Source: Sphagnum magellanicum
Lineage: Eukaryota > Streptophyta > Sphagnopsida > Sphagnales > Sphagnaceae
Assembly: GCA_021904315.1 (NCBI GenBank)
Contig: CM038910.1
Coordinates: 17,670,001-17,734,000, forward strand
Reading direction: 5' to 3'
DNA: 64,000 nt
Below are positions 4,799 through 58,340 of this stretch, piece after piece (positions within the stretch are counted from its first letter, which is position 1; every line of letters begins with the position of its first letter). A program made the translations under genes and the position numbers. Below the pieces are notes generated by a model that saw nothing but the letters and a program-made list of their open reading frames with translations, was not told the DNA's origin and did not search any database.

Positions 4799-4799
4799 A

Positions 4800-8980: not shown

Positions 8981-8989
8981 CCGTCTTGG

Positions 8990-11810: not shown

Positions 11811-12049
11811 GATCACGAGCAGCAGCAGCTTCAGCCAGCCAGTTCACTACTGTTTCCAGCACTCAGAGAGAATCCCACCACCCTTGCGACAAGCTTTCTT
11901 CTCCAAACCATCTACAACTTCTTGCGACACAGGTAACATACGGAAATTTTCCCTTTTCTCGATCGAGCCTTCTGATCGACCCTTTTCTCAACCTTTCTCA
12001 AACCCTTTGTTCTCCCCCTCCCCCGCCTGCTTGCTTGCTTGCTTGCTTG

Positions 12050-19114: not shown

Positions 19115-19545
19115 TTGCAATGAAAACTACTTTGTGGTGACCAAATGGTCTTGATCGCAAATAAAACAAACTTCCCATCCTAAGAAAAAGAAATGGTGGC
19201 CACCAAATGGTTTCAATTGCAAAGAAGAAAAACTTTCCATGGAAAAAAACCACTTTGTGACCACCAAATGGTTTTAATCACAAAGAAAAAGATCTTTTCA
19301 TCAATTTTTTTAAAAATGAAAATTGGTGGTCACATTGGGGGTTTTTTTTTAATGAATTTTTCTTCACAACCAAAGTGATTTTTAAAATTTCTTTTTAAAA
19401 AATAAATTTCATGATGGAAACCACTTGGTGACCATTAGGTGGTTTTTTTTTTCTTTCTGTTTGAAATGATTTTTTTCGTTTTTTTCTTTAACTTTTTTTT
19501 TTTTTGCAATCAAAACCACTTGGTGGCCATTAAGCAATTTTATGA
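19115..19545. repeat. Cluster of degenerate 'CCACTTGGTGGCCAC' short repeats
   Basis: Several diverged copies of a motif of about 60-80 bases resembling aaccacttggtggccaccaa followed by atggttttgatcgcaaag and an A/T-rich tail (about 19120, 19190, 19250, 19415 and 19515). The copies are separated by T- and A-rich spacers. A second cluster of the same family lies at 21450-21830. Confidence 0.6.
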
Positions 19546-19549
19546 AAAA

Positions 19550-21445
19550 ATTGAAATTGTATACACATGACAACCACAGTTCATGGTTTGTTTACATTGC
19601 GTGTATGTATCCTACGTGTTACATAGGAATCCTTTTAAATGTTTTAAATAACAATAACACCTTCACTTTTATTCCATATTGCATTTGGGGGGAGGGAAGG
19701 TGGGGGGAAAATATTATACAAATTTTTACGATATTAAAAAAAAATTAAATGAAAAAATCATAATTTTGAAAATTTTGAGGTCAAAATTAATGGGAATATT
19801 TTTTATACCAACCTTAAAACGATTATCAATTACATAGTGAATGTTCAGTTCAATGAATGTAAACATGTGTTCTAAAGGTTAAATATTGTAATAAAATCAA
19901 TGAAAATATTTATAAAACATAAAATAAAATTTAACATTTTATTGTGAGGCATCAAGTACATTGTTCAAACATATGCCATTACTTATCACCACCAAACCCA
20001 AAAGAAAAAATCCAAGTCCCCCACAATGCATGAGTTGAATCTTCATATTGGTTGCATGATATTTCTATTTCAAAAATTATTTGTTTCACATTGTCAACCT
20101 AAGCCCATACCTCTTCCTAAAATTTTGAGTACCCATTCAAAATATCAAAGTGTAATACTAAGCACCCCCCTTGCTTTGACACCAATAGAAAAAGATTTTG
20201 ACCTCTTTAGGGTTTAAGGTCCAACACTTTGTTGTGAGTCATGAGCTTCATTGTTCAAATTCGTGCCATTAATTAACCATCAAACCATGAATAAAGTTTT
20301 TTATTGCATTTTACTTCTACACTAGAATGGTTATTGTGAGGGCTTCACTTTTCTTTTTCATTATTTTTTTCTACCTTCCAAATGTGACAGTTTTGCTTTG
20401 TTAGACTTTGCTACATTTCCCTATGTAATTTTGGCTTGTTTTCTTCACATTTTGCTACATTTCTTTGTGTGCATTTACGTTGTTACTTAACTTGCTTGTT
20501 ATCAAATTAATTGCAATAAGTTTCACTTGTTTTATTATTCACAATTCTTACTATTATAGTCAAGGGAGGTAAAATGGTAGTTGTAGTATATGATTTAGAT
20601 TGTGGAGTTTGAGATGTTGCATTTGAAACAAAGGTGTTCAATAAGTATGGCACCTTTGGTTGCATTAACAAAAGTTCGGAGGGTCCAAGCTATGTTTATT
20701 TGCATTGTGATTTGTTAGATAAGGCAACTTCAACCACAATCACATCAAAAAAGAAATCATCACATATAAAAATGCATGAGCACCTTTTGTAAAAGGGCAT
20801 GTATGTGAAGGTGGTGAAATTTGGAATAAAATCAAATCCAAAATACATATCATCATATTAGTAAAGTAAATGAAAATTGTGTCCTTAATTCCTCCCTTTG
20901 AACTAGAATTGGATTTTATGTTCTTTAACATAGATTGCATAAGGCTATTCAAAATGTCAATTCAGTCCTAAGCTTTTACCACTCTTGCCATCATTGTTAT
21001 TGTTATTAGGGGAGGAGATAACATGGGTGAAAAACAATTATTGATAAGATGGAGAAAGAAAAATTCACAATGATGTTTTTGGTAGGGCAACAATTTTTTT
21101 ATAAAAAATGAACAACTTCTTGAAGCATACAATAGAAGCCAATGCACAATGATGTTAATCAAGAATGTGGCAACAATTCCAAAGGAGATCAATTCTTGAT
21201 AGCACATTATTACATAATTTTTAGCAAGGTCATGGATGAAGGTGTTCAAGCTTGCCTTTTCCATAACTCAAATCACGCACAACAAAATTTCATGTAATTA
21301 ATCCCCATTAAGAAAGGTACCATTTTTTCTTTCCATTTTTTTCTTCTCTATTATTTTTTCTTGAGGACCAATTGTTTATAAAAAAAAACAACTAAGAGAA
21401 TTTGTATATTTCTAATTTTTAATTAATTTTAAAATTTTGGGAAAA
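19550..21445. other. AT-rich intergenic DNA
   Basis: No gene or element boundary recognised. Several T- and A-rich stretches. The longest frames (98 codons or less) show no domain. Confidence 0.45.
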
Positions 21446-21449
21446 AATA

Positions 21450-21835
21450 ACCTAATGGCCATTAGTGCAAATTTGACCTAGTGGCCACCAAGTTGTTTTC
21501 TTTCTTTGCGACTTTAATAAGGTCCAAAACCATTTGGAAGCCACCATGTGCTTTTGGTCCCCCAAAAAAACCACATCCTAGTGCCCATTTCTTGGGGTAA
21601 TTTGTGTACGGTTATTTGTTATATTTTTTCCTTGAAACCAAATGTTGGGGAAAAAAAAATGGCAACCACCAATAAAACTTTGACCTACTAGTTTTGATTG
21701 TAAGAAAAAAACTAACATGGTGGCCATTTAATGGTTTTGGTTGCAAGAAACAAAACCTCCACCTAGTGGCCACCTAGTGGTTTTTTCTTTGCAAGCATAA
21801 CATGTTAGCCACTAGATGTTTTTTTCATTCATTTT
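21450..21835. repeat. Second cluster of degenerate 'GTGGCCACCTAGTGG' short repeats
   Basis: At least five diverged copies of the short repeat also present at 19115-19545 (for example around 21475, 21530, 21665, 21720 and 21765). Each has a core like tagtggccacctagtggttt followed by ttgcaag-type sequence. The cluster ends just before the zinc-ribbon remnant of the plus-strand rolling-circle element, so it may mark its left border. Confidence 0.55.
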
Positions 21836-21894
21836 ATCTTATTTCATGTCTTATTTGTTTTTAAATTAAATTTTTGTTTATTTATCTAATTAAA

Positions 21895-22126
21895 GTGTTG
21901 TCCATAGCAAGCCTTGTTACACCTTCATTTTGGAAAGTATGTGGAAATTGTCATGGAACAAATATCATTGCATCTCCAACTAGTGATGTTCATTGTAATG
22001 TTTGTCATTTGAAATCAAATGTTCAAAAACCAAGTTTTTTTCATGATTCTATTCATAGGGGGACACTTAATATAAAGTTTGGGATCTACATGTGTCAAAC
22101 AACCATTTTTAAAGGGAATATTAGAT
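21895..22126 (+). pseudogene. Zinc-ribbon segment of the Helentron-like element A
   Basis: An open frame of about 77 codons contains FWKVCGNCHGTNII and then VHCNVC, giving two CxxC pairs 14 residues apart. This is a zinc-ribbon layout such as is found in RPA-like or Helitron N-terminal regions. A diverged version with the same spacing (NIIVAATNGSVHCNVCG) lies 5' of the Rep domain of the second element, which supports its being part of the element. Which domain family it belongs to is not settled from sequence alone. Confidence 0.55.
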
Positions 22127-24434
22127 AATTGTCCAACCTATTTTTTATCACCCTATTATTATTTAGTTTTCTAATATATACATATTAAAGGCACCCTATA
22201 TTAATTATAATCCATTATTTTAGATTATTACATACCTTATATTATAATTAAATAGATTATTTGAATAAAATGTACCTTATTTTTTAACTAATTAAATTAT
22301 AATTTCTACCCAACAACCAATATATTGCACCCTATATTTTTACTTTCATATTTTTTACTTTTTTTTTACTAGTGTCCCCCCCCCCCCCCCCCCCCCCCTC
22401 AGCTTCTATTGCAATTGACAATTAACTTGTGTTGACCATTGAAAGCAAATGGCTAAAAAAATTGTGCAAATGTTAGAATCTACAGCCTTTAATTTGCCTC
22501 ATCAAAAATAGGTGCAACTCAAGATATCAATACACATTTATGGTAAATTCCAATTATCACCCACATCTACCTTTATTGGCTTTCAAAAAAAATCCAACAA
22601 GGCACCCTAAAAAAAAAAAGAATTTATGTAATCATGATTCAATTGTGACTCCTTTGAAAGTTATTGGTAATGATGATGTGCATTATAGTGTGAAAGACAA
22701 GCTTGACTTTGATAAGTTGAATCAATTAAAAAATCCATGGAATGTTTAGTGTCAATGTTAATAGTATTTTATTATCAATATATATAGTTTATACAATTTC
22801 AAAAACATTTTACCTCACAATTTTGGGTTGAATAGCCTAAATTATATAAAACCTCTACGGTGAGATTTTGTCTCCATTCATTGCAATACCCATTACAAAA
22901 GATGAACAAATTCCTAACATTCAAATTGAGCATTCCCATTCAATAATTGATCTTAATATCACACATTATTTTATTTTTTGATTGAACACTTTATGACAAT
23001 AATGCTTTTGACTTCTTAAATATTTATCCAAACCTAACATATTATGCAAAAACATCTAAATTCATTAACATATTTTCAAATATTACAAGAGCAAGATCAC
23101 AAATTATGAATTGCATAAAATACATACATTCTAAAAAATCATGTAAACATCCCACAAATGACAAAGTTCAATCACCATATATAAGATGTTGTTTAAATGA
23201 AAATAAACAACCAATTCCTGTTAAACATCAAATTCAACCAAATAAAGTCAAACATCATGTTTAAATAAATAAACATGAACATACATTAAAAAAACATTGA
23301 AATCTACAACAAATAAATCTAAGACGTTTCAATACATTCATTTTTTAATATGAAATATTATGTTTCTTAAAACATGTTAAACATATTTCAAAAAAGTTGT
23401 TGAAATAACTTTTAAAATATTTCCAAATTAAAATAAAACCGAGCTCAACATTATACATATGTACAAGTTGTTTACATCACATCAATGATAATAAATCACC
23501 TTTATACCAAATGCCAAATATAAATTTGAAAAATAAAAATCATTCCATTAGTTTAAAAATTAACATAATTTGAGAACGTCATTGTGTTTTTTTTCAAATT
23601 TATAAAATTTATAGTTGTGGACAATGTAAAATGCATGGTAATGTTATTAATGTCCTTGCAAATGTGATAACGTTCTATATTACCATGTCTACCATACGAT
23701 GAAACAACAATATGAGTATTTTTTAAGCAATGTCTTGAATTTAAATCACCTTATATGTCAAGAAATGTTCATCCAAACACAATAATGTTTGTTTTATGAG
23801 ATTTGATCAAAATGCCATTATAAAAATATTTAAATGTTATCGTTCACCATCAATGGGAAATTTTGTTTACTTTGTATATAAATTCAAACTTATACAAATG
23901 ATAATTCATCATTGGATAATTATAATTACCATAGTGGAAAAAGACATTGTACACCAAAAGATTCAATGGTACATAATTTTTTGAACTCTCCAAAAATAAT
24001 GGATTATGATAATACAATATATTTTATTACCCTAAGTGAAAATTTTCATTTTCAATCTTATTTCAATATAAACATTCAAAGGAATTAAAATTTCCAACAC
24101 TATTCTATGGCTAACCTTGACAAATTTTTGAACAATTTTCATATCAACAAATAATTCAATGGGAATTGTTTCATAAATATGGGGATTTTTTACTAATATT
24201 TCAAACCTTTTCTTTAAAGTAATTAAGTTTCCATCCACAAAATCATAAGTTCTAGTTGGGTGCAAACACAAAATGGAAAACTATGTGATATTTAACCTCA
24301 AAAGTTTTTTAAGATCAAGAGAAACCAAACTTGGATAATGTTTTCAAATCGTTCTTAGGTTATTGCAATTTGGAAGACTTGCATAATTCACCTGACGAGA
24401 GATTCCAAAAAATATATTTGAAATGATTTAGCAA

Positions 24435-25300
24435 CTTGGTCCCCCAACATTTTTTGTGACTTTTACATCTATTGAAAGATTGTGGGATCTTTTCATTATG
24501 GTTTTACACACATTACATGTTAGAAAATTAAATCTCCCAAATAAAATAGAAGACCTTCAATCTATTCACATACTATAATTAATACAATTTGACCTTGTTA
24601 TATGTGCAAGATATTATAATCATAAAACATTTTTATTGCACAAACCTATGATGAAAGATCATTCTTTTTTTTGATCCAATTTTCTTTGTCACATAATTCT
24701 AGAATCATGGTAATGATCATGACCATGGATTTTATGGAAAAAAATGCATCTTTTTATAAAGTGCACACAAGCAAAGAAATTGAATGGTTTGTAAATATGT
24801 ATATTTCTTGTGATGCACCCATTATCATCAAATCCATTGTAGAAGCCCAACAACATTAACACACACATACATGTAAGAAGAAAAATGATGTTTTTTATAG
24901 ATTTCATTGCATGTTACCTACCATGCATGAAACAAAAATCCTATAACTTCTTGAAGTAAATGGAATTATCCATTTTCAAAACAATACTTACATACACAAG
25001 CAAATTAAATATTCCAATCTTTGAAAAATTGAAAAGAAAATGAAAATGAATCATTTTTTATATATTTGGATTGTTCAAACCTTGATGACAATACATATAT
25101 ATTAAGTTTGAGAGGCAAATTAATGAAGCTACACATTTTTTTAAAAAACATTCCTATAAACATAAAAACCAATGCCTAAATAATGTACATGTTATTCATT
25201 TGCGGTTTACAAATGCAAATACTCAGTTTATCTTCAACCCATGTGCAAGTACAACATATTGCACATCATACATGACAAAAATGAATAAGCCAATAATATC
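24435..25300 (+). pseudogene. Rep (rolling-circle nuclease) domain remnant, element A
   Basis: Opens with LGPPTFFVTFTSIERLWDLF, the start of animal/Helentron-type Rep domains, and continues for about 75 codons with a single stop. The metal-binding H-x-H appears as DHDHG at about 24714-24728, then a frameshift into the KNASFYKVHTSKEIEWFV frame. The catalytic two-tyrosine motif reads YCTSYMTK (Y-x3-Y-x2-K) at about 25248-25271. Several frameshifts and stops mean it is inactive. It aligns by eye with the Rep remnant on the minus strand at 50461-51297 (GPPTFFITF, SEHDHGFLWIKDA, YCTSYITK), with the same 540-base spacing between the H-x-H and Tyr motifs. Confidence 0.75.
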
Positions 25301-25813
25301 AAAACAACATTCTATCATAAAAAAATGAATTGAAAGTACAAGAGATGCAAATTCAAAAATTCAAAAATTAATTAACACTTTTAAAAATATTCAACAAATG
25401 GTTATTAACCTTGTGTTTTTTTTACCATTATACCATTCATCTCAAAAAATTCAATTCCATTACGTAGTTGACAATATGCACTTGGCATGATGCACTTGAC
25501 ATGATCCCAATATTAAAAAAATAAATAATTTAATCAATTTAAAATTAAAAACATCACATCCATAATATCTGGAATGACAACACATATTATGCAATAAATA
25601 ATTCACATCATACAATTTCCATTACACACATAATTGATATTGAACAATATGATTTACAATTTGACTTTGTGATTCGATCATGTAATGGATCAAATAAAAA
25701 ATCACAAACATTATAAGATGATAATTTCACAAAATCATCATATTCCATGATAATGGAAGAATTCAAATATCACAATTTAACTAGAAAAATAAATGAAGAA
25801 CAAAGCCTAATGT

Positions 25814-26200
25814 TTGATGACATTATGCATTAAAAATAATAATTATAATTCATTGAATTTTTTATTTTTTATAGGGGGTGTTGGAACATGCAAAACCTTC
25901 ACATTGAAATTTATAATTCAAGGATTATTACAATCATACAATAAAAACGTATCTTCAAACTTAACAAAAACCAAAGCTTTGTTCATGGCATTCATAAGTA
26001 AAGTTGCATTCAATATCGATGGTTTAACAATACATTCAACATTAAACATACCTATCTAACAATCATTATTTAGTTTATTAAATTTATCATCAAATTCATT
26101 AAATAATCTTACATGTCAATATGAATAATTGTAACATGTTGTGATAGATGAAATATCACTTGTAATGTTAGAATGCTTAATGCTATAAATAATAAATTAA
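25814..26200 (+). pseudogene. PIF1-like helicase remnant, element A
   Basis: The frame at 25814-26059 contains a Walker A as GGVGTCKTFTLKFIIQG, where the usual GxGKT glycine is replaced by Cys (GTGKT to GTCKT), followed by AFNIDGLTIHSTLNIPI, a PIF1 family motif. After a stop, Walker B reads VVIDEISLV near 26135-26165. The following helicase motifs are absent. The role in a live element would be unwinding DNA during rolling-circle transposition. Confidence 0.75.
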
Positions 26201-26530
26201 ATTCCATGAAACATATCGAAAACAAATTTTGCATGGTTTTAATTTTATCATGACATGTGATTTTTATTAAGCACTCCTTGTGAAAGATACATGGATCTTT
26301 CAAAATATGAATGATTATGTTAATGCATTAGCACAAAATTATAGCAAACATATGCACAATGTTATGAATGAAATAAGGTTATGTGACAATTTGATATACT
26401 ATTCATACAAACTTTTACCATAATACATCCAATTTTTTTTTGTATATGTGTATAATCTCATTCACATGTGGTTTTTATATTCTTAAACAATATACAAACT
26501 TTAATTCAACATTATTTAAAACATTGTTCA

Positions 26531-26765
26531 ATCACCATTTTGGGAGATTGTAATGTTAAAATTTTTAAATACAATAATCATGCAAAGAAAATAAGAACTA
26601 TTAAATTTCATGGATGAATTCAAATTAAAATCACAATTCAATGGAAACACCACAAAAGACGAATATCAATTAGATCATATTGGGTGAACATTCTTGGAAA
26701 TGAATGCAAATTTAGTGTAATTTTGAAACAAATTGATTTATATTGCATTCAAACTACTCAACAAA
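26531..26765 (+). pseudogene. EEP endonuclease domain remnant, element A
   Basis: Reads ITILGDCNVKIFKYNNHAKK from 26531, then after a frameshift DEFKLKSQFNGNTT and YQLDHI, then WVNILGNECKFSV. GDxN and the late LDHI(W) are the catalytic Asp/Asn and Asp-His motifs of the endonuclease/exonuclease/phosphatase fold found in LINEs and Helentrons. There is no reverse transcriptase nearby; the domain follows the helicase on the same strand, so I assign it to the Helentron-like element. Confidence 0.7.
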
Positions 26766-26845
26766 TTTTCAATGTATAACAAGAAACCATTAACATTTCT
26801 TATTTTTTAAAAGTGTAATATATGTGATTACATGTGTGTGTGTGG

Positions 26846-27225
26846 GCCACAATGAACCAACACCTACTAGCGCACCATGAAGGATGGATGGTAAGTGGTT
26901 ACAAACAATTTTCTATTGGATTCTAGTTCCTTAATTAATTAACCATTGGTGCTTAACTTAGTTATCTTTTTTTATTACCTACCTATTAACAACCTAGTGG
27001 GTTGTTAAGAGGTAGGTAGTCAAAACAACCCTTACTTATGTATAAACCATTTACTTAATAAAAGATACATATTTTCCTACCTATCTACTTATATATGAGA
27101 CCTATTTCTTACAAAATTGATTACCAAGGTGAAACCGAATATTAACTCAATTGATATTCATACACAACTAAATAATAACATGCATATAGTGGATGGTGCA
27201 TCGGTGGGTGTTGGTTCACTATGGC
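26846..27225. mobile_element. 380-bp inverted-repeat (MITE-like) element
   Basis: Terminal inverted repeats of 33 bases: left 26846-26878 (gccacaatgaaccaacacct...) and right 27193-27225. 26 of 33 positions match and all seven differences are transitions, as expected from decay of methylated cytosines. Inside is a strong hairpin with 21-base arms at 26974-26994 and 27000-27020 (19/21 paired). There is no coding capacity and no clear target-site duplication. It lies just 3' of the EEP domain of element A, so it could be either an independent MITE or the 3' terminal region of the rolling-circle element. Confidence 0.55.
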
Positions 27226-27239
27226 TTGCGTGTGTACAT

Positions 27240-29320
27240 GCTACATTTTCCATTTGGTGACCCCCAAATGGATTATGGTTTTAACATCTATTGCAATTGG
27301 TGTTTCACCAAATGCAAAGGGCACTTCATGGGGTAAATTATGTTTTTGTTAATTTTCAAATCCACATGCATAAAACTTTTCCATTTGGCAAGCACAAGAT
27401 GGATCTTTTGAAGATATTTCTCTTTTTAATTAGACCCACCAAACATAACAACAAAACACATTTCATTGAAATCTTTAAACCTAAAATGCAACAAAAAAAA
27501 GTACATGATTACAATTGCCAAATCCTTAAACCTATAATTAAAGTATCATGGAAACAAAATGAAGCATAAGAACTAGGAGCAAAACTTTTTCAACTCGTTT
27601 CATTAAAATTCTATCCATCCATTGCTAATGTTTGTTCAATACATCTAAGTATTTAATGTTATGTGCACATAATGTTAGACCTTTTCAGAGAAAATGCACG
27701 GATTAAAGGAAGGTGCCCTGCCCTCACATGTAAACAAAAAAGAATTCAAATTTATTTGTACACAATATGGTTTCTTTACATGTTTACATCATTTGTGGGG
27801 TTGAGGGAAAGGGGGTGGGCATGTACAATTTTAAATATTGTGAATTTAAATCTAAATTTTAAATAAAATGAAATATATATAAATTCAAAGGCCCTTTTCT
27901 TTTAAAAGCCAATGAACTCTTAACCAATTAACTTAAGTTTATAATAATGAAGACATTTCCAATGCATGTTCTTGTAAATTTTATGTAAAAAAATATTTTC
28001 AAATATAACTTCTCATGCTATAGTCATTTGTTTATCCTTTTAGGTTTTGTATTAGCAAAATTTTTGATTCACATGAACATTCATCAAGCACTTTCAAAGT
28101 TATGTTGAATTTGCCTATTTTAGGATTTTAATTTGTTGTTTTGTGCAATGTACATTTCTCCTTTTTGTGTTGTCACCCATTCCATTCCAAAAAAATTCAT
28201 TTTTTTACATGTTTCTAACTTGACTCTTTTTCAAATTTTGGGGGGTTTTTCATGTCCAATAACCTTGGATAGTCCATTAGGAGATTTAGCAAGTTTGCAA
28301 GCTTTTCCCCCATCACTTTAGGTGGCATTGAATTTATTTCACTCATTGCTATCACCCCATCAAAATATTTAAGGAGTTAGGCTTTTGTAATTTCATCTTG
28401 TACTTCTATATTTTTCCTAACTAATGCCTTTTCTTTCTAAAGCCCTTAGGTTCATGTTAACATGAATTTATTTTTTTCTTTCAACAACATTTCAAAGCAA
28501 TTTTTGATCTCTTACTACACCATAGCTTGTGCATGCTCTGTAGTTTCTTTCTTTTAAGAAATCATTTCAAAATGTTTCCATCATCATAACTCTTCCAAAA
28601 CTTATTTCTATAAAGAAATTCACTATGGAACAAGCTTGCATCCTTTGAATATTGGATCCAATAATCAAAACATGAAGCACAATTCAATCAATCCCATCAT
28701 GTTTGACTTGTCTATAACAAATTGAGAGATAACGGTAGGCTTGGGCAACCTTTTGAATTCAACCCCCTTGGGAAAATGCATATCTCCCTTTCTCACCTTT
28801 GATTTATTGTCGTTTGATAAGATTTGGTAATGGGGTGTGGAATTAATTGATTGATTAATTAAAATATTTGTTTATTTAAATACATTTTGACATAAAATAT
28901 CATTTTCATAATTTTTTTGACTTGCATTATAAGAATAGGTAATTGTTTTGGGCAAGAATGAGGATGTCAATCATTTCTAATCCAAAATGATTCAAAACAT
29001 CCATCAATTACATTTCTTGATTCTTGTTTGTTTATGTTGAGTTCACTTCAAGCTTCACAAGGAGGAAGTGCATTGTATGACGTGAAGGGTTGGTGTTATT
29101 GATGATGGGGTGAGAGAGACTTTAAGTAGTGATTTTCAGAGACATTTTTCCAAAGCATAGTTTTGTCAAATTTAACTTCACACAATTTTTGCTAGAGAAT
29201 TTTTGCATACAATAATATACCTATTCTCCAAGAAAGCTCCAGCCCATATTTTGGACCAAACGGAGCATGTACAACTCTAGTGAAAGATGAAGAACATGCC
29301 AATAACTAAGGGTTATAACC
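27240..29320. other. AT-rich intergenic DNA
   Basis: No recognisable gene, RNA gene or element. The longest frame (27291-27569, 92 codons) has no family motif. Confidence 0.45.
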
Positions 29321-46109: not shown

Positions 46110-46740
46110 CATCTAGGGTTTAGGGTTTAGAATCTACTCAGGGTTTAAGCTAATTTAGGGTTTTATCTGATGTCATGATGGTTATTCACATGCAGTCTAG
46201 GGTTTAGGGTTTAAAGTCTATTAAGGTAATGTAAGATCTTATCTCATGTGATGATGGTCATTCACATGCAGTCTAGGGTTTAGGGCTTAGAGTCTATCTA
46301 GGGTTTAAGGCAATGTAGGGCGTTAATCTGATGTGACGATGGTCATTCACATGCAGTCTAGGGTTTAGAGTCTATCTAGGGTTTAAGGTAATGTAGGGTT
46401 TTATCTGATGTCATGATGGTCAATCACATGCAGTCCAGGGTTTAAGGTTTAGAGTCTATCTAGGTTTAAGGTAATGTAGGGTTTTATCTGATGTCATGAT
46501 GGTCATTCACATGGAGTATAGAGTTTAAGGTTTAGAGTCTATCTTAGTAGGGTTTAAGCCAATGTAGGGTTTTATTTAATGCCATGATGGTCATTCACAT
46601 GTAGTACAAGGTTTAGGGTTTAGAGTGGATCCAAAGGTTTTAAAACAATATAGGGTTTTACCTTATGTGATGATGGTCATTCACATGTAGTATATAAGGT
46701 TTAAGGTCTAAAGTGTATCCAAGACTTAAGGGGGGTTCTA
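46110..46740. repeat. Tandem array with telomere-like TTTAGGG motifs, about 83-bp units
   Basis: Seven full units and a partial eighth start at about 46110, 46195, 46271, 46356, 46433, 46516, 46604 and 46690. Unit lengths are 76-88 bases. Each has the form GTCTAGGGTTTAGGGTTTAG, a link like AGAGTCTATCTAGGGTTTAAG and GTAATGTAGGGTTTTATCTG, then ATGATGGTCATTCACATGCA. The plant telomere heptamer TTTAGGG recurs two or more times per unit. Diverged single copies appear at 47018-47062 and 56130-56275. Interstitial telomere-like arrays of this type are common in conifers. Confidence 0.9.
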
Positions 46741-47484
46741 CCACGAGAGGCTTTGTCTTTTAATTTTTTTAATTTAAAAATTTTAAGATGACATTTGATG
46801 AATGGAGATAATATTGGTTTAAAGATTATATGTTTTTTTAATTATATGATCACTTTAATACTTTAATTATTAGTTTTCAAATAAAGAAGTTTTACTAGTT
46901 CCAGCCAAAGTTTTTCTTTTCAAATTTGTGAAGTAGGTGGGTTGGTGATCCCTCACAATAGAACTTACTTAGCCAAATTTGGTGAGAGGTGAAAGAGGGA
47001 AGTAAAAAAAACTTGTGCTTTAGAGTCTAGGGTTTAAGGTTTAGAATCTATCTAGGGTTTAATGGTGACTTGCTAGAGCCTATTGTTTACATATGGTGAC
47101 TTGAAACCTTTTTATCCTCATGATGTGGCACTCCCCGGGATTAAAATCCTATTGGACTTTTTGGACTTTTTTGTATTTTTTTGTCACATTTTGTTACATG
47201 CCTACAATTGCGTATTTTGGCATCTCTTTCCATCTTTCCCATATTTTGGCATCACTTTTTCATCTTTTACCATATTTTGGTATTTCAATATGTCATTTCC
47301 ATTGGTATCTCTTTCCAATTAATTCTTCATTTTGCCCATATCTTTCTAACTTATCCCACATTTTTTTCCCCATATTTTGCCATCTGTTTTCATCTCTCCC
47401 ATATGAGCACGCCACAAGAGGTTTTGTCTTTTATAAAAATCAAAAAATTAAAATGACATTAGATGAATGGAGATAATATTGGTT
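46741..47484. repeat. Direct duplication flanking a 30-bp-period repeat
   Basis: The sequence 46741-46819 (ccacgagaggctttgtcttt ... tgaatggagataatattggt) recurs in diverged form at 47412-47484 (ccacaagaggttttgtcttt ...). Between them, 47211-47405 consists of degenerate units of about 30 bases resembling catattttggcatctctttc followed by catctttcc. The nearby frames (47083-47476) are products of this repeat. Confidence 0.65.
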
Positions 47485-47698
47485 CGTTACTATAAATTGG
47501 AAATGTGTCTAATAGTTTGAATGTCACTTAAATTGGTTCATGAAAATTTGACCAATATGCTTCTAAAACACCTAAATTTGGTATCGTTTCCCTAGCACAT
47601 ATGGTCAAACGTGATCAAGCTTTGTTGTGATATTTTTGAATTGGGATTTTAATTCTAATTTATTCATAATGTTTATTAGTTACTATTTTTTTATTTTT

Positions 47699-48055
47699 TT
47701 AATGACTGTTATCATCTAAAATGTCGATATTAAAATCTCCTAAGACAATGAATGGGAAATCATTTGGGGACTTTTGAATCAACACTTCTAATGTGCTGAA
47801 AAACATAGAAATCAAAGAAGAATGATTTTTATAAACACATATTATATGAATCGCTCTTCGAGTTCTTATGTTGAATGTAACTAATATGTATTTTGATGCA
47901 TTACATGTTGTTGTGTAGTAAGAATGTAAGAGCATTTGTGTGTTGTGCATCATTATCAAATAATGACCATCATAAATTGAAATGGATGAATATTTTGATG
48001 TATTTATGAAATTATGTACATCATTTAATGATTGTATTCTAGTTTCCGAATGCAA
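47699..48055 (-). pseudogene. EEP endonuclease domain, element B
   Basis: An intact frame of about 118 codons reads INTSKYSSISIYDGHYLIMM, later FNIRTRRAIHIICVYKNHSS and PNDFPFIVLGDFNIDILDDN, then a stop. The pattern Y-S-I-S-YDGH...A-HIICVYK-P..GDFN-DIL is that of an endonuclease/exonuclease/phosphatase domain. The C-terminal catalytic half (SxxDHI) is missing here but is present in element A. Nothing like a reverse transcriptase follows. Confidence 0.75.
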
Positions 48056-48839
48056 AAAACATTTGATACTTGTAGGTTGGGGTCATGGTTTATATTTTGG
48101 TAATGTTGTTTTAAAGAATTTGTGTTGAGAGCTTGTGTAATAACATGTGAATGGTAAAAGTTTTTTAAATTGAGAAACAAAAGTTGTCTAATTTGCAAAA
48201 GTTTTTAATCTATTCATCTTTTCAACTACACATTAATTAATGTGAAAGTTTTAATGTTGGAGTGGAGTTAACAAGTACAACCCTTCTTTTGTTTGAATGT
48301 GAGAAAGAGCACTATATGATAGTCCATGTTTTCTTACATTGGTAAGATTAAAAACTAATTCATCTAACAATAATCCTTGTGATTGATGAATGGTTCTTAT
48401 TGTTGTTAATTGAATTGGAAATTGAATTCTTATTATATTATGAAATCGATTTTTGCCAATTCTTATGTATTTGATAATTTACTCAATCGTTGGTGTCCAA
48501 TTTGGTTGAATATTGTTTGTATAAAAGTGGGTAAATTTTTCTTTAACTAACATTCATGTTTTTGGATTTGGGGATAATATCGAAACTATGGTTTGTTATG
48601 ATAAGATGTTGGTGTTTTGAATACACCATTAACTCCATTAACAAGGCTATCATATCTTGCATAATTTCCAACACACAATTCAACTACCATATCTTGTTTG
48701 ATACAAATTATAATATATGTAAGTTGTAGTTTTTCTTAGACCATTTGGAAGTTTATATGATGATGAACATGAATGATGATGAATGTCTATAGCCTCAAAA
48801 TTGAATGTTGGGCCAATTGTTTTGTTAAACACAAATTTA

Positions 48840-49725
48840 TTATGTTTTTGCATTAAAATATTTGTATAAAAAAAATGTGGTGTAGTTAAAATGTTTGGTA
48901 TTTCTCTGACAACAATTTGAATTGATATATTGAATGTTTTTTAAAGTTTTTGTGTAGGTGCAAAATTTGTTTAAAGTTTTTATAAATTTTGTATTAGTTT
49001 GTTGCATAACTAAAGTTAATTCATAACATTTAACATTGTTTTTCCAAAAGTTTGGTGCTAATGCATTTATACTATCATTAAGGGAATAAAAAATCCAACA
49101 ATTTTTAACAAGGGGTGTTTGATAAAAATCACCTAACATGATGACATTTAAACGATTGAATAATTTTTTTTGAATATATTTTATTGCCTTAATTGGTGGT
49201 CTATAACATTAAACATTTTAATAGTTATAGGAAACATTCCATCTATTAGAACTAGTTGCAATAGTTCATATCGACATGTGAGTTTCTTTAAAGAATCTGA
49301 TGATAATTTGATAGATTTGTTAATGTTTGTTGAAAATGTTAAATGTATTGTTTGACCATCAATATTAAATTCAAATTTGCCTATAGATACCATAAGTGAT
49401 GCTTTAATTTTTGTTAGTTTTAATGATAAATATTTATTATATGTTCATATAATCTTTGAATTATTGATTTCAAAGTAAAAGTTTTACTATTTATAACACG
49501 TCTTACCAAAAATATATGTATTGAATATTATAATACATTTGTTTTCTTATATATGATATCATCAAATATTAAATTTTTTCTTTCATTTAATTGTCTAAGC
49601 ATACTTTGATATTCTAATTCATCCATTATCACAAAATTTGGCGATATTGTAAAACCAGCATCTTCAAAATTTTGTGTTTTATAATAAAATGTATTGCATG
49701 ATTGAATGACGAAATCATTTTTCAA
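48840..49725 (-). pseudogene. PIF1-like helicase, element B
   Basis: Broken into frames at 49725-49528, 49393-49181 and 49139-48840. The second contains KFEFNIDGQTIHLTFS, SSDSLKKLTCRYELLQLVLI and MFNVIDHQLRQ, the PIF1 region from motif Ia to Walker B; the usual DE of Walker B is altered to DG. The third begins LGDFYQTPLVKNCWIF, the GD-xQLPPV motif, then NALAPNFWKNNVKCYELTLV. Walker A lies in a degraded stretch near 49490-49420 (GKTCYK). Between 48800 and 48060 no further helicase motif is clear. Confidence 0.75.
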
Positions 49726-50460
49726 ATCATATTTTCCAATATTTAATATATTTGTGATGGGGATTAAAAAACATCGATCACTAATGTCATTGTCAATGTC
49801 ATCATTCTATATGTTTTGTGGATGTGAAGATTTTGTTTTTAAATTCATGTCATCATTTTTTTCATTTGTATGTTTGTTTTGCATGTTATAATTGAATTTG
49901 GATCTAATTGTGAATATATATAATTCTACTTGGCAATAGGCATCATGCTAAGTAACATGTGTTTTTAATAATGAACTTTCAGAATTTTTAAATGGTGAAT
50001 ATAAAAGAAGTTGTTCTCTTAACCAATTTTCTATATCTTTACAAAGTTATATGTTTATTATAATTTACAAACCTAATGATTTTTGTTCGTGGCATTTTGA
50101 TAATTTTAAATTCTAATGTTGTAATAGGAGGTAAATTTTCCTAATGATAAAAATTCATAATTTTTTTGTCAAATTAAATATTTGTCTTTAATTGATGCAC
50201 ACAATATGTCAGCGGAATAAGGTTCCAATTGATTTAGTAAGGACCAAGGTTTTAATACAAAAAACACGTTCTTGGTATGGAAAAGTATTAATAAACTTAA
50301 ATGTTCGTGATGAATGATATAAAAGAATTGAAAAAACTAAATAAGTAGCAAGTTGGGCAAACATTTGTTGAACATTAAAAAAAAACATTGCCTAAATTTT
50401 GGATTCTTATGTTGGTATCAATTTTATCTAAAATACATTCTTCTATTATTGAATGCAATT

Positions 50461-51297
50461 ATGAGGTTACATATTTGTCAAATTTAGTTATGTATGATGT
50501 ACAATATGATACAATTGCATATGGATGTAAAATAAATTAAATATCCATATTTATAGGCCATAAAGGAACAACACGTATGTTAAATGCATTGGTTTTAATG
50601 TTTGATAATGTTTGTTTAAGAAAAGTGTTTAGCTTCATTAATTTACTTCTTAAACTTAATATGAATGTTTCTTCATCAAGATGTAATAGATTAAAAAATC
50701 CAAAGAATGTAATGTTTTCATCAATTTTAAAATCTTTTTAAAAATTCAAAAACTTTTGTTGCTTGTTGTTGTAAACATATTTTGTTAAAAGGTTATAAGT
50801 CTTTTTTTAATTCAAGTGGTTTTAATATTATTTTTTTAATCATGGGAGGTAATGGATAATGGAATCTACAAATGACATGATTTTTTTTCTTACATGTTCG
50901 GGTGTGTTGATGTTGTTATGCATTTTGTAATGTAATTGGTAATGATGATACATTACATGAAATGTATTTATCAACATTTTTTTTAAAAATCATTTTTGTT
51001 AATTCCATATATTTGTGCATCTTTAATCCATAAAAAGCCATGATCATGCTCACTACCACAATTTTGAAATTCTATAACAAAAAAGAAATCACAAATTGTT
51101 CAAAAATAAATAGGTCTTTATTGAATAATGTGTGAAAACATGATGTTTTATGATCATGATATCTTGCACATGTAATAGGATTGTTGCATATCAATTATGT
51201 TATATGAATAGATTGAAGGTTTTCACTTTTGTTTAGAAGATTTAATTTTTTAGCATGTAAAGTATGGAAAAGTTATAAAGAATGTTGGAGGGCCAAT
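50461..51297 (-). pseudogene. Rep domain, element B
   Basis: Read on the minus strand with several frameshifts: GPPTFFITF (about 51292-51266), VIEFQNCGSEHDHGFLWIKD (about 51070-51015) with the H-x-H metal site, RKKNHVICRFHYPLPPMIKK (about 50905-50845), QQQATKVFEFLKRF (about 50770-50730) and PYAIVSYCTSYITKFDKY (about 50525-50470) with the two catalytic tyrosines. These are the ordered motifs of Helitron-superfamily Rep nucleases. The SEHDHGFLWIKDA version (usual GSPHxHxxxWIxDAP) is closer to animal and Helentron types than to canonical plant Helitrons. Confidence 0.78.
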
Positions 51298-52504
51298 CTA
51301 TCTTATCATAACAAATAATTTTTTCCGTAAACTTTCATATTGTTTTGGTGAAGTACACAACCTTTCTAAATTACAAAATATGATGTGAAAATCTTATTTA
51401 AACTTGGTTTATCTCGCATTTCAAAAACCTTTAATGATCTACCATTTGGTTTTCCTTTGCATATACATACCCATCCGAAGGTTATAACTTTTTGGATAGA
51501 AACTTTTACGACTTTTTAAAAAAGGTTAGAAATATTAATTGAAATTTTTTTAGATTTGTGAAGTGATTCCCATTGTGCTATTTGTTGATATGATATTTTT
51601 TTCAAAAATAATTAGGTGTTGTGGACGCCGATAAAACAATGCTGGAAATTTTAATTATTCGAAATGAATATCTCTAAACAAACCTAAAGGATGAAAATTT
51701 TGATTTGGAGCAATAAAATATATAATTTTTTTGTAATCATTAATTTTTTAAGCACCTAAAAAGTTATGCATCGTGGAATTATTTGGCACACAAATTATGT
51801 GGTCTTCATTTTCAGAATTAAAATATCAAATGATGATATATTTTAATCATTTGTTTGATTAAACAAGGTTATATGCATAAAAAACAAATTGTTCCATTGA
51901 GGGTCTATGGTAACATTTAAATCTGAATATAATGGTGTAGAAATTAAATCATTTAGTGCCAACATGACTGAATTAGAACATACATTTTTAGACAAGTAAG
52001 GTGATTTATATTCAAGTCACTACTTTAAAAATCCACCTATTGCTGCCTCATCATATGGTAAACGTGGTAACATTAATTGAATTCAATCAATATTTGATGG
52101 GACATTAATAACACTACCTTTCAATTTATATTGACCATAACCATGAAATTTATATATTTAAGTCTATAACTTAATTACTAGAATCACAACTTTGTTATTT
52201 TTGGATTAAGTTTGTAAACATCAAAATCAAGTTTTTGTTTTGTTGATGTGGGCTCCACATCAATAAGAAGATTTGATGAAGATGGATGAAAAAGGCCAAA
52301 TTAGATGGAAATTCATGTGTTCCTCAAAACTAACAAGTTGAGAAGTAAAAAGTCAATTGAAATTTACTTGTAATTTAGTTTTATTTAAAAGCTAAATTTG
52401 TTTTGGACATGGTTAAACAAAAAAATTAGCTTCCAACATACCCACCATAGCTTCCAACCATTTTCTTTCAATAGGAAAGAGAACATGATCTCTAATTGTT
52501 AGTG

Positions 52505-52612
52505 CAATTGAAGTTCATAAAAAACTAACCTTCTTGATAGTTGTTTTTACACCACATACATTACAATGCACACTACCATTTGTCGCTGCAACAATAATAT
52601 TTAGCACATGAC
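52505..52612 (-). pseudogene. Zinc-ribbon remnant, element B
   Basis: The minus strand reads CHVLNIIVAATNGSVHCNVC, then GVKTTIKKVSFL and a stop. This aligns directly with element A (CHGTNIIASPTSDVHCNVC, KSNVQKPSFF), including the second CxxC. It sits about 1.4 kb 5' of the Rep H-x-H site, whereas in element A the distance is about 2.7 kb, pointing to an insertion in A or a deletion in B. Confidence 0.55.
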
Positions 52613-52639
52613 ATTTGACACATAACTTTTAGAAAGGAA

Positions 52640-53855
52640 GGGTTGCCAAATTGAATATAGATAATATTCCAACAACCCCCCAAAAACAAAAATCATGAAT
52701 GAACCAATGGTAAAAGAAATATACAATCTAAAAATTAGATTAAATAAATAACAAGAATAAATTAGCTCTTTCATAGGAGGTTGGCTGCTTGTTAATTTGG
52801 TGTGGAGTTGAAATAATTGTGTTTTCACATCATCATCAACCACTCTAACCATTATAATATAAGGTTGTGCTTAAAGAAACTAATTGTTGATTATTGTTAT
52901 TGTCAGATTCTTTACCAACACCATAGCAAATTGACTAGAAGTTTTGGCTTCAACCAATTGGTTGTAATCTATTCTAAATTGATTGCCAAAAGTAAAAACA
53001 TCTTGATCAAAATGACCTTCACCATCAACAATCGTAAATTGCCTTTCATGATTGCTCTTTCCACCTTTTATTGTAACAATAATGATAACACTAGTAACAT
53101 TGGAAAATTTGGACTACAATGACCTGGATCTGAATTCTTTAAAAGAAATGGAAAAACATTGGAATCAAAGCATGTTCAAATGTTGTAATGGATAGCACAA
53201 TAGTGATGGATTCCATTGCAAGAATAATTGGCATGTCCCCTTTTTAAAACCCTTTCTAAGACCCAGTCTCAATTCCAAAATTCTCAACCTTGACATACAA
53301 CTTTTTTTGGAGCACATTTTCATGCATTTAAATGTGGGGGGATTTAACATGTAAGGTGATCATAGTCAAGCCTATTTGGTCAAATAACTAACAATAGAGA
53401 ATAAGCATAACTTGGATCATCCACGGTTTCTTTTAGTTATGTAGTAAAAAATGCCATACCAATTTAACACCAACCTTTCAAAAGCCACATTACAAAAACC
53501 CATATCCAAATCATTGACACCAACAACTTTTCTACCTTTATGAACATTAGATGACAACATTGTAAAAGATGAAAATCAACAAAACTTATCTCAATGTAAA
53601 ATATAACACTTACATATGAAATGCACATCAATTTTTGGAAAACCACTTCTTGAACACTCAAGGTAAGATCAAGAGAAAAAAGAAAATGAAAGAATTATAT
53701 ATAGGTGAATTTTTTTTATGTTACAAGGAGAAGTCAAATATGGCAAATGGAATGTTTATGCCCAAAAAATTGTGCGGAATCAAAGTCTTTAATGGGTTGT
53801 AAAAAAACGATTAAATTAATTAGTCAAAGTAGTAAAAGGAGACCTATTGGAAAAA
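52640..53855. other. AT-rich DNA, no gene recognised
   Basis: Several short frames on both strands (up to 101 codons at 52817-53122) without motifs. May include the 5' end of element B. Confidence 0.4.
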
Positions 53856-53859
53856 TAAA

Positions 53860-55918
53860 TATTTATTGGGAATAAACACTTATAAAAATCAAAATTGTGG
53901 TTAAATATGTGGTTAGTTAACATTTATAAAAATTAAATATGTGATTTTGTAGTTAAAATAATTACTTGACATTAATTCAAAATATGGAGCATTAACTAAT
54001 AACTAAAATAGTTACCTAACTAAGCAAGAACTAATATACTAACTAATTAGTTAATATTTATCATATTTTAATTTAACACATATAAAAGTCAAATTTTTAC
54101 TTAATACATGTTAATCTAATTAACAAAATAACTACAAATTTTGACTTCACATTTAAAAAGGTCAAATATGTGGTCAAATTTGTGATGTTGTAAAACTTAT
54201 AAAGCTTTAATTCATGGTTAAATTCATGATTTTATAATATTTATAAAAATCAAATATGTGGTCAGATTTGTGATGTAGCATTTATAAATCTCAAATTTGT
54301 GGTTAGATCCATAGTTAGTTATCATCTATAAAAATCAAATTTGTGGTTATATCCATGTTTAACTAACATTTATAAAAATTAAATTTGTGGTTAAATTTGT
54401 GATATTATAACACATATAAAAGTTGAATATGTGGTTAAATTCATAATTAATTAACACTTTAAAAATGAAATATGTGGTTAAATATGTGATATTATAACAT
54501 TTAAAAATCAAATTTATGGTTACATTTGCGGTTCAATAACATTTATTAATCAAATAACTAACATTTAACTAACATTTAAAAATCAAATATATGGTTAGAT
54601 CTATGATGTTGTGACACATATAAATGACAAATTTGTAGTTAGATATGTAGTTAATTAACATTTATAAAAACTTTTATAATTTAAACTTTTATAAATGTTA
54701 ATTAACCACAGATCTAACCACAAATTCAACTTTTATATATATTACAACATCATAAAACTGACCACAAATTTGACTTTCATAAATATTATAGCACCACGCA
54801 TTTCATGACACACCCCCAAACTCCTTGATGGACTCAACTATGAGTCCAAAGGGTGAAAATAACAAAAGGATAAAGAATTAAGGCACGCTCCCTAACTTGT
54901 AACACTTTGGGGGTAAAAGGGTGTGCTAGAGCTCTGAGATGTGGATTAGGAAGAGTGACAAGAAAGTCAATTACTCGCACGGACTTGGACAAACCAAACA
55001 ACAAATTGGTTAGTGCATGGTCGGAGCATTTTTGGTGTACAGACTTACCATGGGCAAACATGGATTCACAAGACTCACCATGGCCCTAACTTGGGGGAAG
55101 CCATCACCTTCCCTCTTATAGTATTCTCTGTGCCTAACCACATGGCCAACACCTAAATGTCATTTTGTATCGAGATTCTCAAGTTGGGAATCCTGAAATT
55201 CTCGAAATTGATATTCTTGTAATTTTGGAGGCTCATAATTTTTTGTGTAGACCTTTGATTGAAATTAGGTTTAAAGTAAAGTTGTAGCCCTTGTCGAGAA
55301 CTTCCCAACGATATGTGACATGCCACTTGCACGCAAGTAAATTAGAGCGATTCCCGACTTTTAATGGCCCCTCTTTTGACCGTAACTTGTGTTTTAAGTA
55401 CCCAAATGGGTCATACAAGCCCATTTTAGACATCTAACTTCCAAGAATTTTCTAATGATATAAAGAACTCTTCAATCCAGTGAGTTTTGAACCTTATAAT
55501 CACCTTCTAAAAATTTGGGAATCCATCGGGACTCCAACTCCCAAAATGGGAATTCACTTGGAATTGTGGGGGTTCATTTCTTCACATTCTCCTACACTCC
55601 TGGGAGCATGAAATGTGATTCCCAAACTTCACTCTTGGCCCACACCTTTGCAAGTATTTGCTTTGGTCGCAAGGTTAGGGTTGCGACATCTAACCATAAA
55701 TTCAATTTTTATATGTGTTACAACATTATAAATCTGACCATAGATGCAAGTTTTATGAATATTACAAAATCACAAATCTTGCCTTTTTAAATGTTAAATT
55801 AAAATTTGTAATTATTTTGTTAATTAGATATTATCATGTACTAAATACAAACTTGACTTTTATATGTGTTAAATCATAATCTAATAAACATTAACTAATT
55901 AGTTATTAATTAATATCC
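53860..55918. repeat. Long inverted repeat (foldback) built of short AT-rich units
   Basis: The left arm (about 54030-54680) consists of degenerate units of about 45-60 bases like acatttataaaaatcaaata followed by tgtggttaaatttgtgat; similar units begin near 53860. From the centre at about 54652-54706, where ttaattaacatttataaaa faces its exact inverse, the sequence turns over and runs in inverse orientation at 54690-54805 and 55689-55918. The outer ends also match: taactaattagttaatattt on the left (about 54037) is inverse to aacattaactaattagtta on the right (about 55880). The right arm is shorter and is split by a probable solo LTR at 54806-55688. Confidence 0.7.
54806..55688. mobile_element. 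Probable solo LTR (883 bp) inside the inverted repeat
   Basis: A block less AT-rich than its surroundings starts TGACACACCCCCAAACTCC and ends AGGTTAGGGTTGCGACA; its first bases are roughly inverse to its last (TGTCGCAACCC when inverted), as in gypsy LTRs that begin TGTCACACCCC. It exactly interrupts the right arm of the inverted repeat. No internal retrotransposon sequence and no clear 5-base target duplication (tttca versus tctaa), so the call is moderate. Confidence 0.45.
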
Positions 55919-55919
55919 A

Positions 55920-58340
55920 TTTTCAATCCATCCATCCTTTGTATTTCATCCATTCATTCATCTTTTATCCTTCATCCATGTATTTTTCTCTTCATAAGAT
56001 TGGTTAGTCAATAGTGAATTTATAATCAAACCTTATCCATTAAATTTTTTTCTCCAACCCCTATGCCCACTCATTATTGTTCTATTAAAACCTTTTACAA
56101 AGCCAATAAAAAGTTATATTTGATGCAATGATGTAATCTAAGGTTTCAAGTTTCAAGTTTATCCATGGTTTAAGGTAATATGAAGTTTTATTTGATGTGA
56201 GAATGGTCATTCACATGCAATTTATGATTTATTGTCTAGGGTTTAAGGTTTAAGGTCTATGCATGACAAAATAGATTGATTTGCATATGGGGAGGATTAA
56301 TTTAAATAATTTATATGGGTTGCAATTTGGGTTCTTAAAGCTCCAAAGCCCAAGCATTCCATGTTTTGATTGTTGTTGTGAACCCTTGTTCACCAACATC
56401 ATTCTCCAAGGCCTCCTTATTAGTTATTCTCCCATTTATTAATAGTTTAGGATAGGTAAGGGTTGCATTTAGAAAATTTTAGCCCATATAAGCTTTCCAA
56501 GTTGGTCAAAGCTTATTAATTCAACTTTTGACAATTATGTAATTTTAGAGTTGGATAACCTTAATTATAGTGTAGGGTGTAGGGTGTTCCATCATTTTGC
56601 ATTTTCAAGCTAATGGGTTCATTCACACACATCCACATTGCTCAAACCTAGGTAACCTTTTAATCAATGAAGCTGAATTTAATTACTACATGGGTCATTC
56701 ACTTTGAAAATTAAACATTATAATATTGTGTACATTTATGGGTATTAACTTTTAGTGTTAACATTTTGAAGCAAAGTTCCAACGGTTCAAGCTTGTGATC
56801 TAATTGAAGCATAAAAATTGAAACATAAGCATGTTTTGGGCATGATAGGTATAATGAAAGAAATAATGGACTAGTTAATTTTACTAATCATCATCAAGAT
56901 GACAAAACCCTTGAAGGGAACTCAAAAAGAGGTTTATTGAATAATCCCCAAATACAACATGAAATCATAATTGGATAAAATGCTCAAGGAAATAAATAGG
57001 TAACATGAGCTTTTGTGCATGTTATTACAAATTTTTATAAGGGATACAATTTCATCACCATCATGTCCTTAAACCATAGCCTAATAGATATTCATTTAAT
57101 TTGCAAGAACCTCATGATATAGTGAATAATGCACATGAATAGTTTTGTTTTACAATCAACCAAAATTTGGAACAATGGAACACACAACCATTGATAAGTG
57201 CCTAATTTAGGTCATGCAAGCCACACTAGAACATCTCTTTCATCCCCTTGGTAGATGCATTCATTCAAATCTTTGGCTTGCCATTTATAGTACATTTGAT
57301 TTTTAGCACCAAAACAAAGGAGCATGCATTGGCACCCACCCTCTGGTGCCATGGTCTAGTGATGCATTCAAACTCTAGTCAAAAGCATGTTTTTTTTTCG
57401 ATAAGTTCTTTGTGCTTGGCCAATTGTGTTAAATTCAAGTCAAAAGGCGATTCATGCCCTTTATCATTTGGTGGCATGAGTTGAGGTTCACACTTTCCAA
57501 AATTGTTCACCATGTTAACAAACTAATTATTCCATGAAATCTTGTTCCTTCAAATGTAATTGTGATTAGGGTTAGGAGGTTTGGTTGACAATCACAACAA
57601 TGGTAACTAAGCAAAATGCCTAATTCTGACAAAATTGATGAAAAACCTAGATTGAATGGTAGATTGGGTGTGATGGAAATCTTGTGGTAGGAAATTTATT
57701 TCTTAACTTGATTATGTACTACATAAATAAGTAGTACATGGGAGATAATAGTAATATGTATTAGATGGGTGAATATTACACTTAAATTAAAGGAACGCAA
57801 ATAATCCCCTCATGGACCTAGTGAAAAAAAAAAAAACCATCATCATCCTTTGTATTTGGGTAAAAGTAACCTAAGGGGTTTAGGTTAGTTACTTGGATGA
57901 TCTAAGATGAAAAATGGAAGGTTATACTTGAATGAAGGAAAAGTTTCATCCCAAGGATTATTTTCAAGATGAGGAGAAAATGGGTTTCTAAACCCCATTG
58001 GATGAGGGGGTTCCATTTCACCATGATTGGAAGGGGAATGGATAGATGGATATTTTCATCAAGTTCATTGGTTTTTAAAGCTAAGAAGATAATTGATTGG
58101 TGTAAACTTGGCAAAGAAATATTTCCCTTCATCTTCATCGGCCAAGGAAAGGAAGCTCTTGGAGAGAGGTCTTAAGAGAGGCTCACTCTCTTACACCACA
58201 CAAGAACTTGAATTTGGATTTCTTTTGCTTTGGCTTTTGGTTTTGGAAAGGGACTTATGATTTAAAGAGGGTTTTTGGCAAGAAGGAGGTGTTAAGGAGG
58301 AAAAAATGTTACAATAGAACTAATTTTCTTTTCCTTGAAA
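55920..58340. other. Intergenic DNA with one diverged telomere-like unit at 56130-56275
   Basis: 56130-56275 is a diverged copy of the 46.1-kb array unit (gtttaaggtaatatgaag, tgagaatggtcattcacatg, gtctagggtttaaggtttaa). An A13 run lies near 57824-57836. No gene recognised. Confidence 0.5.

Follow-up and report, generated by a model that had tools for sequence, protein, structure and literature searches.

Helentrons are rolling-circle transposons described mainly from animals, with further hits in algae and in oomycetes (Thomas, Vadnagara and Pritham 2014, PMC4067079). An endonuclease is described as the hallmark domain of Helentrons and TT as their target (PMC5148889), and RPA and OTU genes are carried by other Helentrons (PMC4067079, PMC5148889). 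The 2014 survey found Helentrons to be missing from most plant genomes; its plant hits were few, lay on short low-copy contigs and were possibly contamination (PMC4067079). Helitron2 is described as having no endonuclease domain (Thomas 2014, PMC4067079) and has been recorded in the lycophyte Selaginella (Helitron-5_SMo; Bao and Jurka 2013, PMC3627910). Canonical Helitrons carry the ends TC...CTRR and insert between A and T (PMC5148889, PMC4067079). Here we describe a stretch of 64,000 nucleotides from the moss Sphagnum magellanicum (assembly GCA_021904315.1, contig CM038910.1, positions 17,670,001 to 17,734,000), referred to as the window, in which an initial annotation had proposed a Helentron-like element with an EEP endonuclease. 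Two copies in the window, A and B, are very probably (roughly 0.93, judged from sequence) dead members of a Helentron family resident in S. magellanicum. They add a new host group to a transposon type that is already known and do not represent a new kind of system.

The moss elements resemble Helentrons in the order Rep-helicase-EEP with a C-terminal EEP, in their subterminal inverted repeats and T-rich ends and, for some copies, in internal tandem repeats. They differ from known Helentrons in their moss host, in a 3′ hairpin that is not clear, and in RPA and OTU genes that are weakly suggested. With Helitron2 (PMC3627910), they share a 5′-terminal T and terminal inverted repeats that are placed asymmetrically, with the 5′ repeat close to the end and in a hairpin and the 3′ repeat about 20 nt inside, whereas their endonuclease domain sets them apart from it. 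An HUH-type Rep is common to the moss elements and canonical plant Helitrons (Helitron1); unlike the latter, which are characterized by a single 3′ hairpin and the lack of an EEP, the moss elements have an EEP, ends other than TC...CTRR and, in one copy folded, a 5′ hairpin. Our literature search, which covered listed records and the openings of their abstracts outside subscription journals and Repbase, found no report of a Helentron from a moss, and the Sphagnum genome paper (PMC9946827) does not use the word Helitron in its main text.

The endonuclease and its linkage to the Rep-helicase

The searched genome comprised 438,994,042 bases on 31 contigs, of which C1-C19 measure 17-36 Mb. A DNA search with positions 24300-26100 of the window (copy A) returned at least 76 matches including itself, the others being 71-83% identical (the best 40 of 269 candidates were scored). 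These matches were counted as at least 40 Rep-helicase places, the window's own included. About 10 kb of sequence was read for each of six other copies; in the copies read, segments matching those of copy A were aligned in the same order. Their main blocks were 78-87% alike, with lower values in the repeat-rich 5′ part, and the longest copy read spanned about 12.6 kb (c29, 816-13463). When four copies were extended upstream, homology began at a common 5′ sequence in three and ended at a common 3′ sequence in all four; in copy c33 the common 5′ sequence was present twice. Open pieces of family copies matched DUF6570 (2.8e-11), PIF1 was over the cut-off in L034 (1.2e-7), and Helitron_like_N fell just under it in L030 (4.4e-6; 27.5 bits vs. 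a cut-off of 28.9). Among the 19 places L010-L028, H-x-H was readable in 15 and Y-x3-Y-x2-K in 14. A further subfamily, L041, was found to be widespread and decayed (best 150 of 541 candidates scored). An NCBIfam scan gave nothing useful, and the L039 protein had no relative in a single scan of viral contigs.

The EEP of copy L029, used as a query, gave at least 151 matches (the best 150 of 704 candidates were scored). At 33 of the 40 Rep-helicase places, an EEP followed on the same strand, no more than 7 kb downstream, compared to 0.05 expected by chance. An EEP never linked to Rep-helicase, which had been named beforehand as counterevidence, is thus not what the genome holds. As a control, the 60 best Helitron_like_N places were examined, which we regard as canonical Helitrons by extension from a single locus read (L004); no EEP lay within the same downstream distance at any of them. 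Canonical-type Helitrons also abound in this genome, with at least 150 scored Helitron_like_N matches; L004 was read as a canonical Rep.

In L039, positions 7558-8484 form one open frame of 309 amino acids, extending from SQGLSLDEL through QLDHI and DFHKPIYMAF. In this frame, helicase motif VI (SQGLSLDELAFDPTNVRKYGLSYT) is followed by the EEP, up to DFHKPIYMAFKLP, and the helicase directly precedes the EEP. Exo_endo_phos_2 was matched by better-kept copies at 1.3e-6 (over the cut-off), with a best value of 4.2e-7, and by 6 of 14 EEP members at E values up to 0.1. Residues that we take to be typical of EEPs (N of the first strand, ET, GDFN, DHI and the H of DFHKPI) recurred across copies; single copies have lost some of them. 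An EEP match was also present 0.7-2.3 kb upstream of the 3′ end, on the same strand, in 39 of 60 ends (0.03 expected), and within 3 kb downstream in none of the 60.

Element ends, selection and mode of transposition

The 5′ end sequence, TTGTTGGCTCTGTCCTACAGAG, was found with up to three mismatches at 115 places, compared to 1 for a reversed control. The preceding base was T in 18 of 20 cases (20 of the 22 places with 0-1 mismatch), and the farther 5′ flank showed no conservation beyond flanks common to some copies. Similar flanks (CTATCTATGAAGCAAGGTAGT) were noted beside the 5′ ends of L062, L063, L071 and L072, as if these lay at the same site in another repeat or had been co-duplicated. The 3′ end, AGGACAGAGCCTCTCGTGGCAGAGC, occurred at 60 places, compared to 0 for the control. 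Two bases after it, the 20 ends read continued with CTTGTT (exact in 13, altered in the rest) and then diverged; the base after the shared 3′ end was T in 11 of 20. The two arms of the inverted repeat, GGCTCTGTCCT and AGGACAGAGCC, lie about 5 nt inside the 5′ end and 22 nt inside the 3′ end, respectively. The 5′ arm pairs with the bases after it, and the resulting hairpin had a z score of -3.24 in one of two copies folded. The element ends, TTGTTGG...CTTGTT, are unlike the 5′ TC and 3′ CTRR of canonical Helitrons and fit Helitron2 and Helentrons; their layout is the one published for Helitron2 (PMC3627910) and is close to the Helentron layout (PMC4067079). Together with the 33 linked places and the L039 frame, they bear out the proposal of an EEP-bearing Helentron in a plant genome.

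Selection on the EEP was assessed from the ratio of nonsynonymous to synonymous substitution rates (dN/dS) in between-subfamily pairs with at least 55 codons. Where dS was computable, dN/dS between subfamilies was 0.20-0.65, in most pairs below 0.5; dS was 1 or more and saturated in several pairs. These ratios show that the EEP was kept by selection during subfamily divergence. Between subfamilies, the upstream open reading frame (ORF; see below) showed 0.14-0.39 and the helicase end 0.32-0.39, and the front part of the helicase was less clear (0.26-0.99). Inside the main subfamily the EEP ratio was 0.42-1.75, and copy B compared to L039 gave 0.69. Single copies decayed later, with constraint weak or absent. 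At an identity of about 84%, each copy would have gathered about 0.09 substitutions per site since it inserted. Copy A, which is 73-79% identical to other copies, is older or of another subfamily.

In the Helentron protein, an HUH-type Rep nuclease with H-x-H and two-tyrosine motifs was joined to a PIF1 helicase and, at the C terminus, to an EEP/AP-type endonuclease. The general model of rolling-circle transposons suggests how a living element would have moved. Rep would nick the 5′ end and stay attached via its tyrosine, the helicase would peel off one strand, paired inverted repeats would help to define the end of that strand, and the freed strand would be joined into the target between two T residues. 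A possible role of the EEP is to nick this target or to assist in resolving the intermediate.

Copies A and B and the upstream region

The features of copy A are as follows.

20481..27651, + strand: copy A, decayed Helentron; span recognizable through homology with other copies
20535..20843, + strand: upstream-ORF remnant; 55% identity to L044:1678-2289, E 2.6e-27
21865..22128, + strand: zinc ribbon ORF, CxxC-x14-CxxC; 48% identity to the corresponding region of copy L044
22861..25456, + strand: DUF6570-Rep region, broken frames; 74% DNA identity to copy c33
25504..26415, + strand: PIF1-type helicase, N-terminal half, Walker A GGVGTCKT; PIF1 7.3e-9, 77-79% identity to other copies
26440..26837, + strand: EEP endonuclease, second half (GDCNVKIF ... 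QLDHI); by blastn, aligned to the EEP of L029 and L039

The initial annotation had placed the element at 21874..26790. The element is indeed there, but its limits had been drawn too narrowly, as homology reaches about 20,481-27,651. In blastn against four longer copies, matches were obtained for 20481-21227, 21873-22053, 22404-22735, 22861-25456, 25504-26415 and 26440-26837, with further segments at 27431-27545 and 27601-27651. The true ends of copy A were searched for and not found. In a three-frame translation of 21000-28600 (+), the motifs that had been cited, from the zinc ribbon to YQLDHI, were recovered on one strand in the proposed order: the zinc ribbon reads CGNCHGTNIIASPTSDVHCNVC, LGPPTFFVTF lies at about 24435, DHDHG at about 24715-24729, YCTSYMTK in 25182-25295, the Walker A motif in 25862-25945, GDCNVKIF in 26438-26587 and YQLDHI in 26622-26792. 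They are scattered over three frames with many stops between them. The order Rep-helicase-EEP therefore held for copy A, but a complete EEP did not: a deletion of about 1.1 kb at 26415/26440 has removed the end of the helicase together with the first half of the EEP. About 0.35 kb is also gone between Rep and helicase, and extra sequence of about 0.6 kb is present at 26.84-27.43 kb. Minisatellite-like repeats of 43 and 61 bp were observed in or near copy A, at 21683-21784 and 19140-19290, and other copies, judged from their reading frames, seem to have repeats of a similar sort in the 5′ part.

The Pfam check that had been proposed succeeded in copy A for PIF1 alone, the sole scanned piece of this copy to pass a cut-off. 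No Pfam model was reached by its Rep and EEP pieces, and matches of the zinc ribbon ORF were weak and all below the cut-off. Rep and EEP of copy A are recognized because better-kept relatives match Helitron_like_N and Exo_endo_phos_2 (4.4e-6 and 1.3e-6, respectively). In copy A, LGPPTFF follows the zinc ribbon at a distance of about 2.5 kb, with conserved OTU-like and DUF6570 stretches between them; given how broken the frames are, the ribbon may be part of the Rep protein or of another protein.

Copy B belongs to another subfamily and is more complete than copy A, with both ends recognizable.

46716..56112, - strand: copy B, decayed Helentron
47474..48162, - strand: EEP endonuclease of copy B (GDFNIDI, YWSNFHEPI), three aligned segments
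50989..51072, - strand: HUH motif of copy B, SEHDHGFLWIKDAQIYG, E 8.5e-9

The 5′ end of copy B, TTTTTATTGGCTTTGT, is at 56112 and its 3′ inverted repeat, AAGACAAAGCCTCTCGTGG, at about 46761, the outer 3′ limit being approximate. Its body is 64-69% identical to other copies; copy B was recognized as the second copy in the window at 66-69% identity. The EEP piece is 73% identical to the EEP of L039, and Exo_endo_phos_2 matched 47702-48082 below the cut-off (0.0019). A tandem array (83-171 bp units with AGGGTTTAGGGTTTAG) at 46115-46719 adjoins the 3′ end of copy B. Elsewhere in the window, an AP2-domain ORF (43471-45006, E 4.5e-15) and a RING-H2 ORF (10833-11843, E 7.3e-15) were found, both of plant type.

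Upstream of Rep, copies carry an ORF of about 200-230 residues, for which at least 151 matches were obtained (the best 150 of 405 candidates were scored). Among the first 70 of these matches, 31 were followed on the same strand by an EEP at a distance of 2-18 kb (0.23 expected) and none had one within 20 kb upstream. Residues reminiscent of RPA OB folds are marginal evidence that the product is possibly an RPA-like single-stranded-DNA-binding protein, and the zinc ribbon that follows could be an RPA C-terminal domain. In Pfam, a weak DUF223 match was obtained (0.068, 1 of 15 members); there was no significant RPA match in Pfam or the PDB, where the best match was unrelated. In the PDB, the zinc-ribbon profile retrieved nothing beyond viral polymerases and a cytochrome c555 trimer (5.8e-5), the latter because a CxxCH stretch is repeated three times. 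The conserved stretch between zinc ribbon and DUF6570 (NCFFDSISYLL ... LWGDF ... SQHFEPI) resembles an OTU protease, a name that we use tentatively. A four-sequence profile of it had its best, weak PDB match to 6dx2_A (E 0.14) over the NCFF, WG and H segments; we take 6dx2_A to be a viral OTU domain. A nine-sequence profile found no PDB match, so that the four-sequence result was not repeated, and Pfam OTU was matched weakly, at 0.1, by 1 of 9 members.

Competing explanations and host range

Several observations weigh against a resident Helentron family. Its placement would rest on domain order and ends rather than on a tree that includes known Helentrons and Helitrons. Seven of the 40 Rep places (copy A, L034 and five others) had no listed EEP, although L034 does carry one on direct reading. 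The longest EEP member, the 309-residue L039, matched no Pfam model at E 0.1, only shorter fragments doing so, and the EEP profile had no PDB match at E values up to 1. The genome-wide search that had been proposed yielded the related places described above, but no intact copy was present among those read, every one being frameshifted or stopped (the searches score the best candidates). Insertion at TT would follow from the flanks of the copies and not from empty sites. The 5′ hairpin was not unusual in the second copy folded (z score, -1.07), and the 3′ hairpin was not supported: 3-bp stems only were formed in three of four copies folded, with no gain over shuffles in any. Finally, about 30 of the 5′ ends listed are a variant ending TTCAGGG, and the two variant loci read, L056 and L057, to which the variant 5′ end TTGTTGGCTCTGCCCTTCAGGG had led, have no coding region beside that end. 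Therefore, the 115 places are not all ends of coding Helentrons.

The TTCAGGG-type loci possibly represent a short nonautonomous family or another short repeat. L056:150-264 and L057:120-380 carry the variant 5′ end TTTTGTTGGCTCTGCCCTTCAGGG, and a matching inverted repeat, AGGGCAGAGCG, is found in L057 about 230 bases beyond it.

The alternative that survives best, although we consider it improbable, is that a Helitron2-type element gained an EEP independently in the moss lineage and became Helentron-like by convergence. Put more fully, and with equally small probability, a Helitron2-type element of an early land-plant lineage would have acquired its own EEP and then given rise to several subfamilies under selection on that domain. 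Helitron2-type elements are known from algae too. The moss ends suit the description of Helitron2 no less than that of Helentrons, the EEP is remote from models of other EEPs, and PMC3627910 records a Helitron2 from Selaginella (Helitron-5_SMo). However, the EEP is C-terminal, after the helicase, as in known Helentrons; common descent is therefore the simpler reading, as judged without a tree. Helentrons may also have reached this lineage by an ancient horizontal arrival.

A canonical plant Helitron with an EEP-bearing long interspersed nuclear element (LINE) inserted in or beside it is very unlikely. An ORF with LGGDFNACTATLPN, which we read as LINE-endonuclease-like, does lie beside a Helentron copy (L031:1-415, - strand); it is a 91-amino-acid piece without a Pfam family, outside the region common to the copies. 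Exo_endo_phos_2 is, in addition, described in Pfam as an endonuclease-reverse transcriptase. Nevertheless, the linkage at 33 of 40 Rep places compared to 0 of 60 Helitron_like_N places, the single helicase-EEP frame in L039 and the short distance of 0.7-2.3 kb between EEP match and 3′ end (in the 39 of 60 ends with such a match) led us to reject a LINE insertion. Such short distances leave little room for a downstream reverse transcriptase. No reverse transcriptase model was matched by the open pieces scanned against Pfam, and an EEP from a LINE with a nearby reverse transcriptase, the other counterevidence named beforehand, was not found; no search aimed at reverse transcriptase was made.

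Less likely still is that the elements are contaminants or came very recently, by horizontal transfer, from an animal, an oomycete or an alga. Thomas et al. 2014 could not clear their few plant hits of contamination (PMC4067079). Here, contamination was rejected because of the copy number and spread (at least 40 Rep-helicase places and at least 151 EEP matches over large contigs) and because plant-type AP2 and RING-H2 genes are found on both sides in the window. A recent arrival is contradicted by the age of the copies, with main blocks 78-87% alike, copy A at 73-79% and a subfamily dS of about 1 or more. Chance motifs were rejected on the 76 DNA matches of 24300-26100, the PIF1 match at 7.3e-9 and the same order in other copies.

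We therefore retain the assignment of copies A and B to a resident Helentron family. Since the host is a moss, nothing is shown for angiosperms. In this genome, Helentrons are present in a chromosome-scale assembly beside plant-type genes; they are numerous, form several subfamilies and have recognizable ends, and the host range of Helentrons would thus move into land plants. The end sequences provide probes for other bryophytes, ferns and algae. Selection on the EEP between subfamilies shows that this domain mattered in living elements, which bears on its role in rolling-circle elements. If an independent gain of the EEP were true, the Rep-helicase-EEP fusion would have arisen more than once and would be functionally favored.

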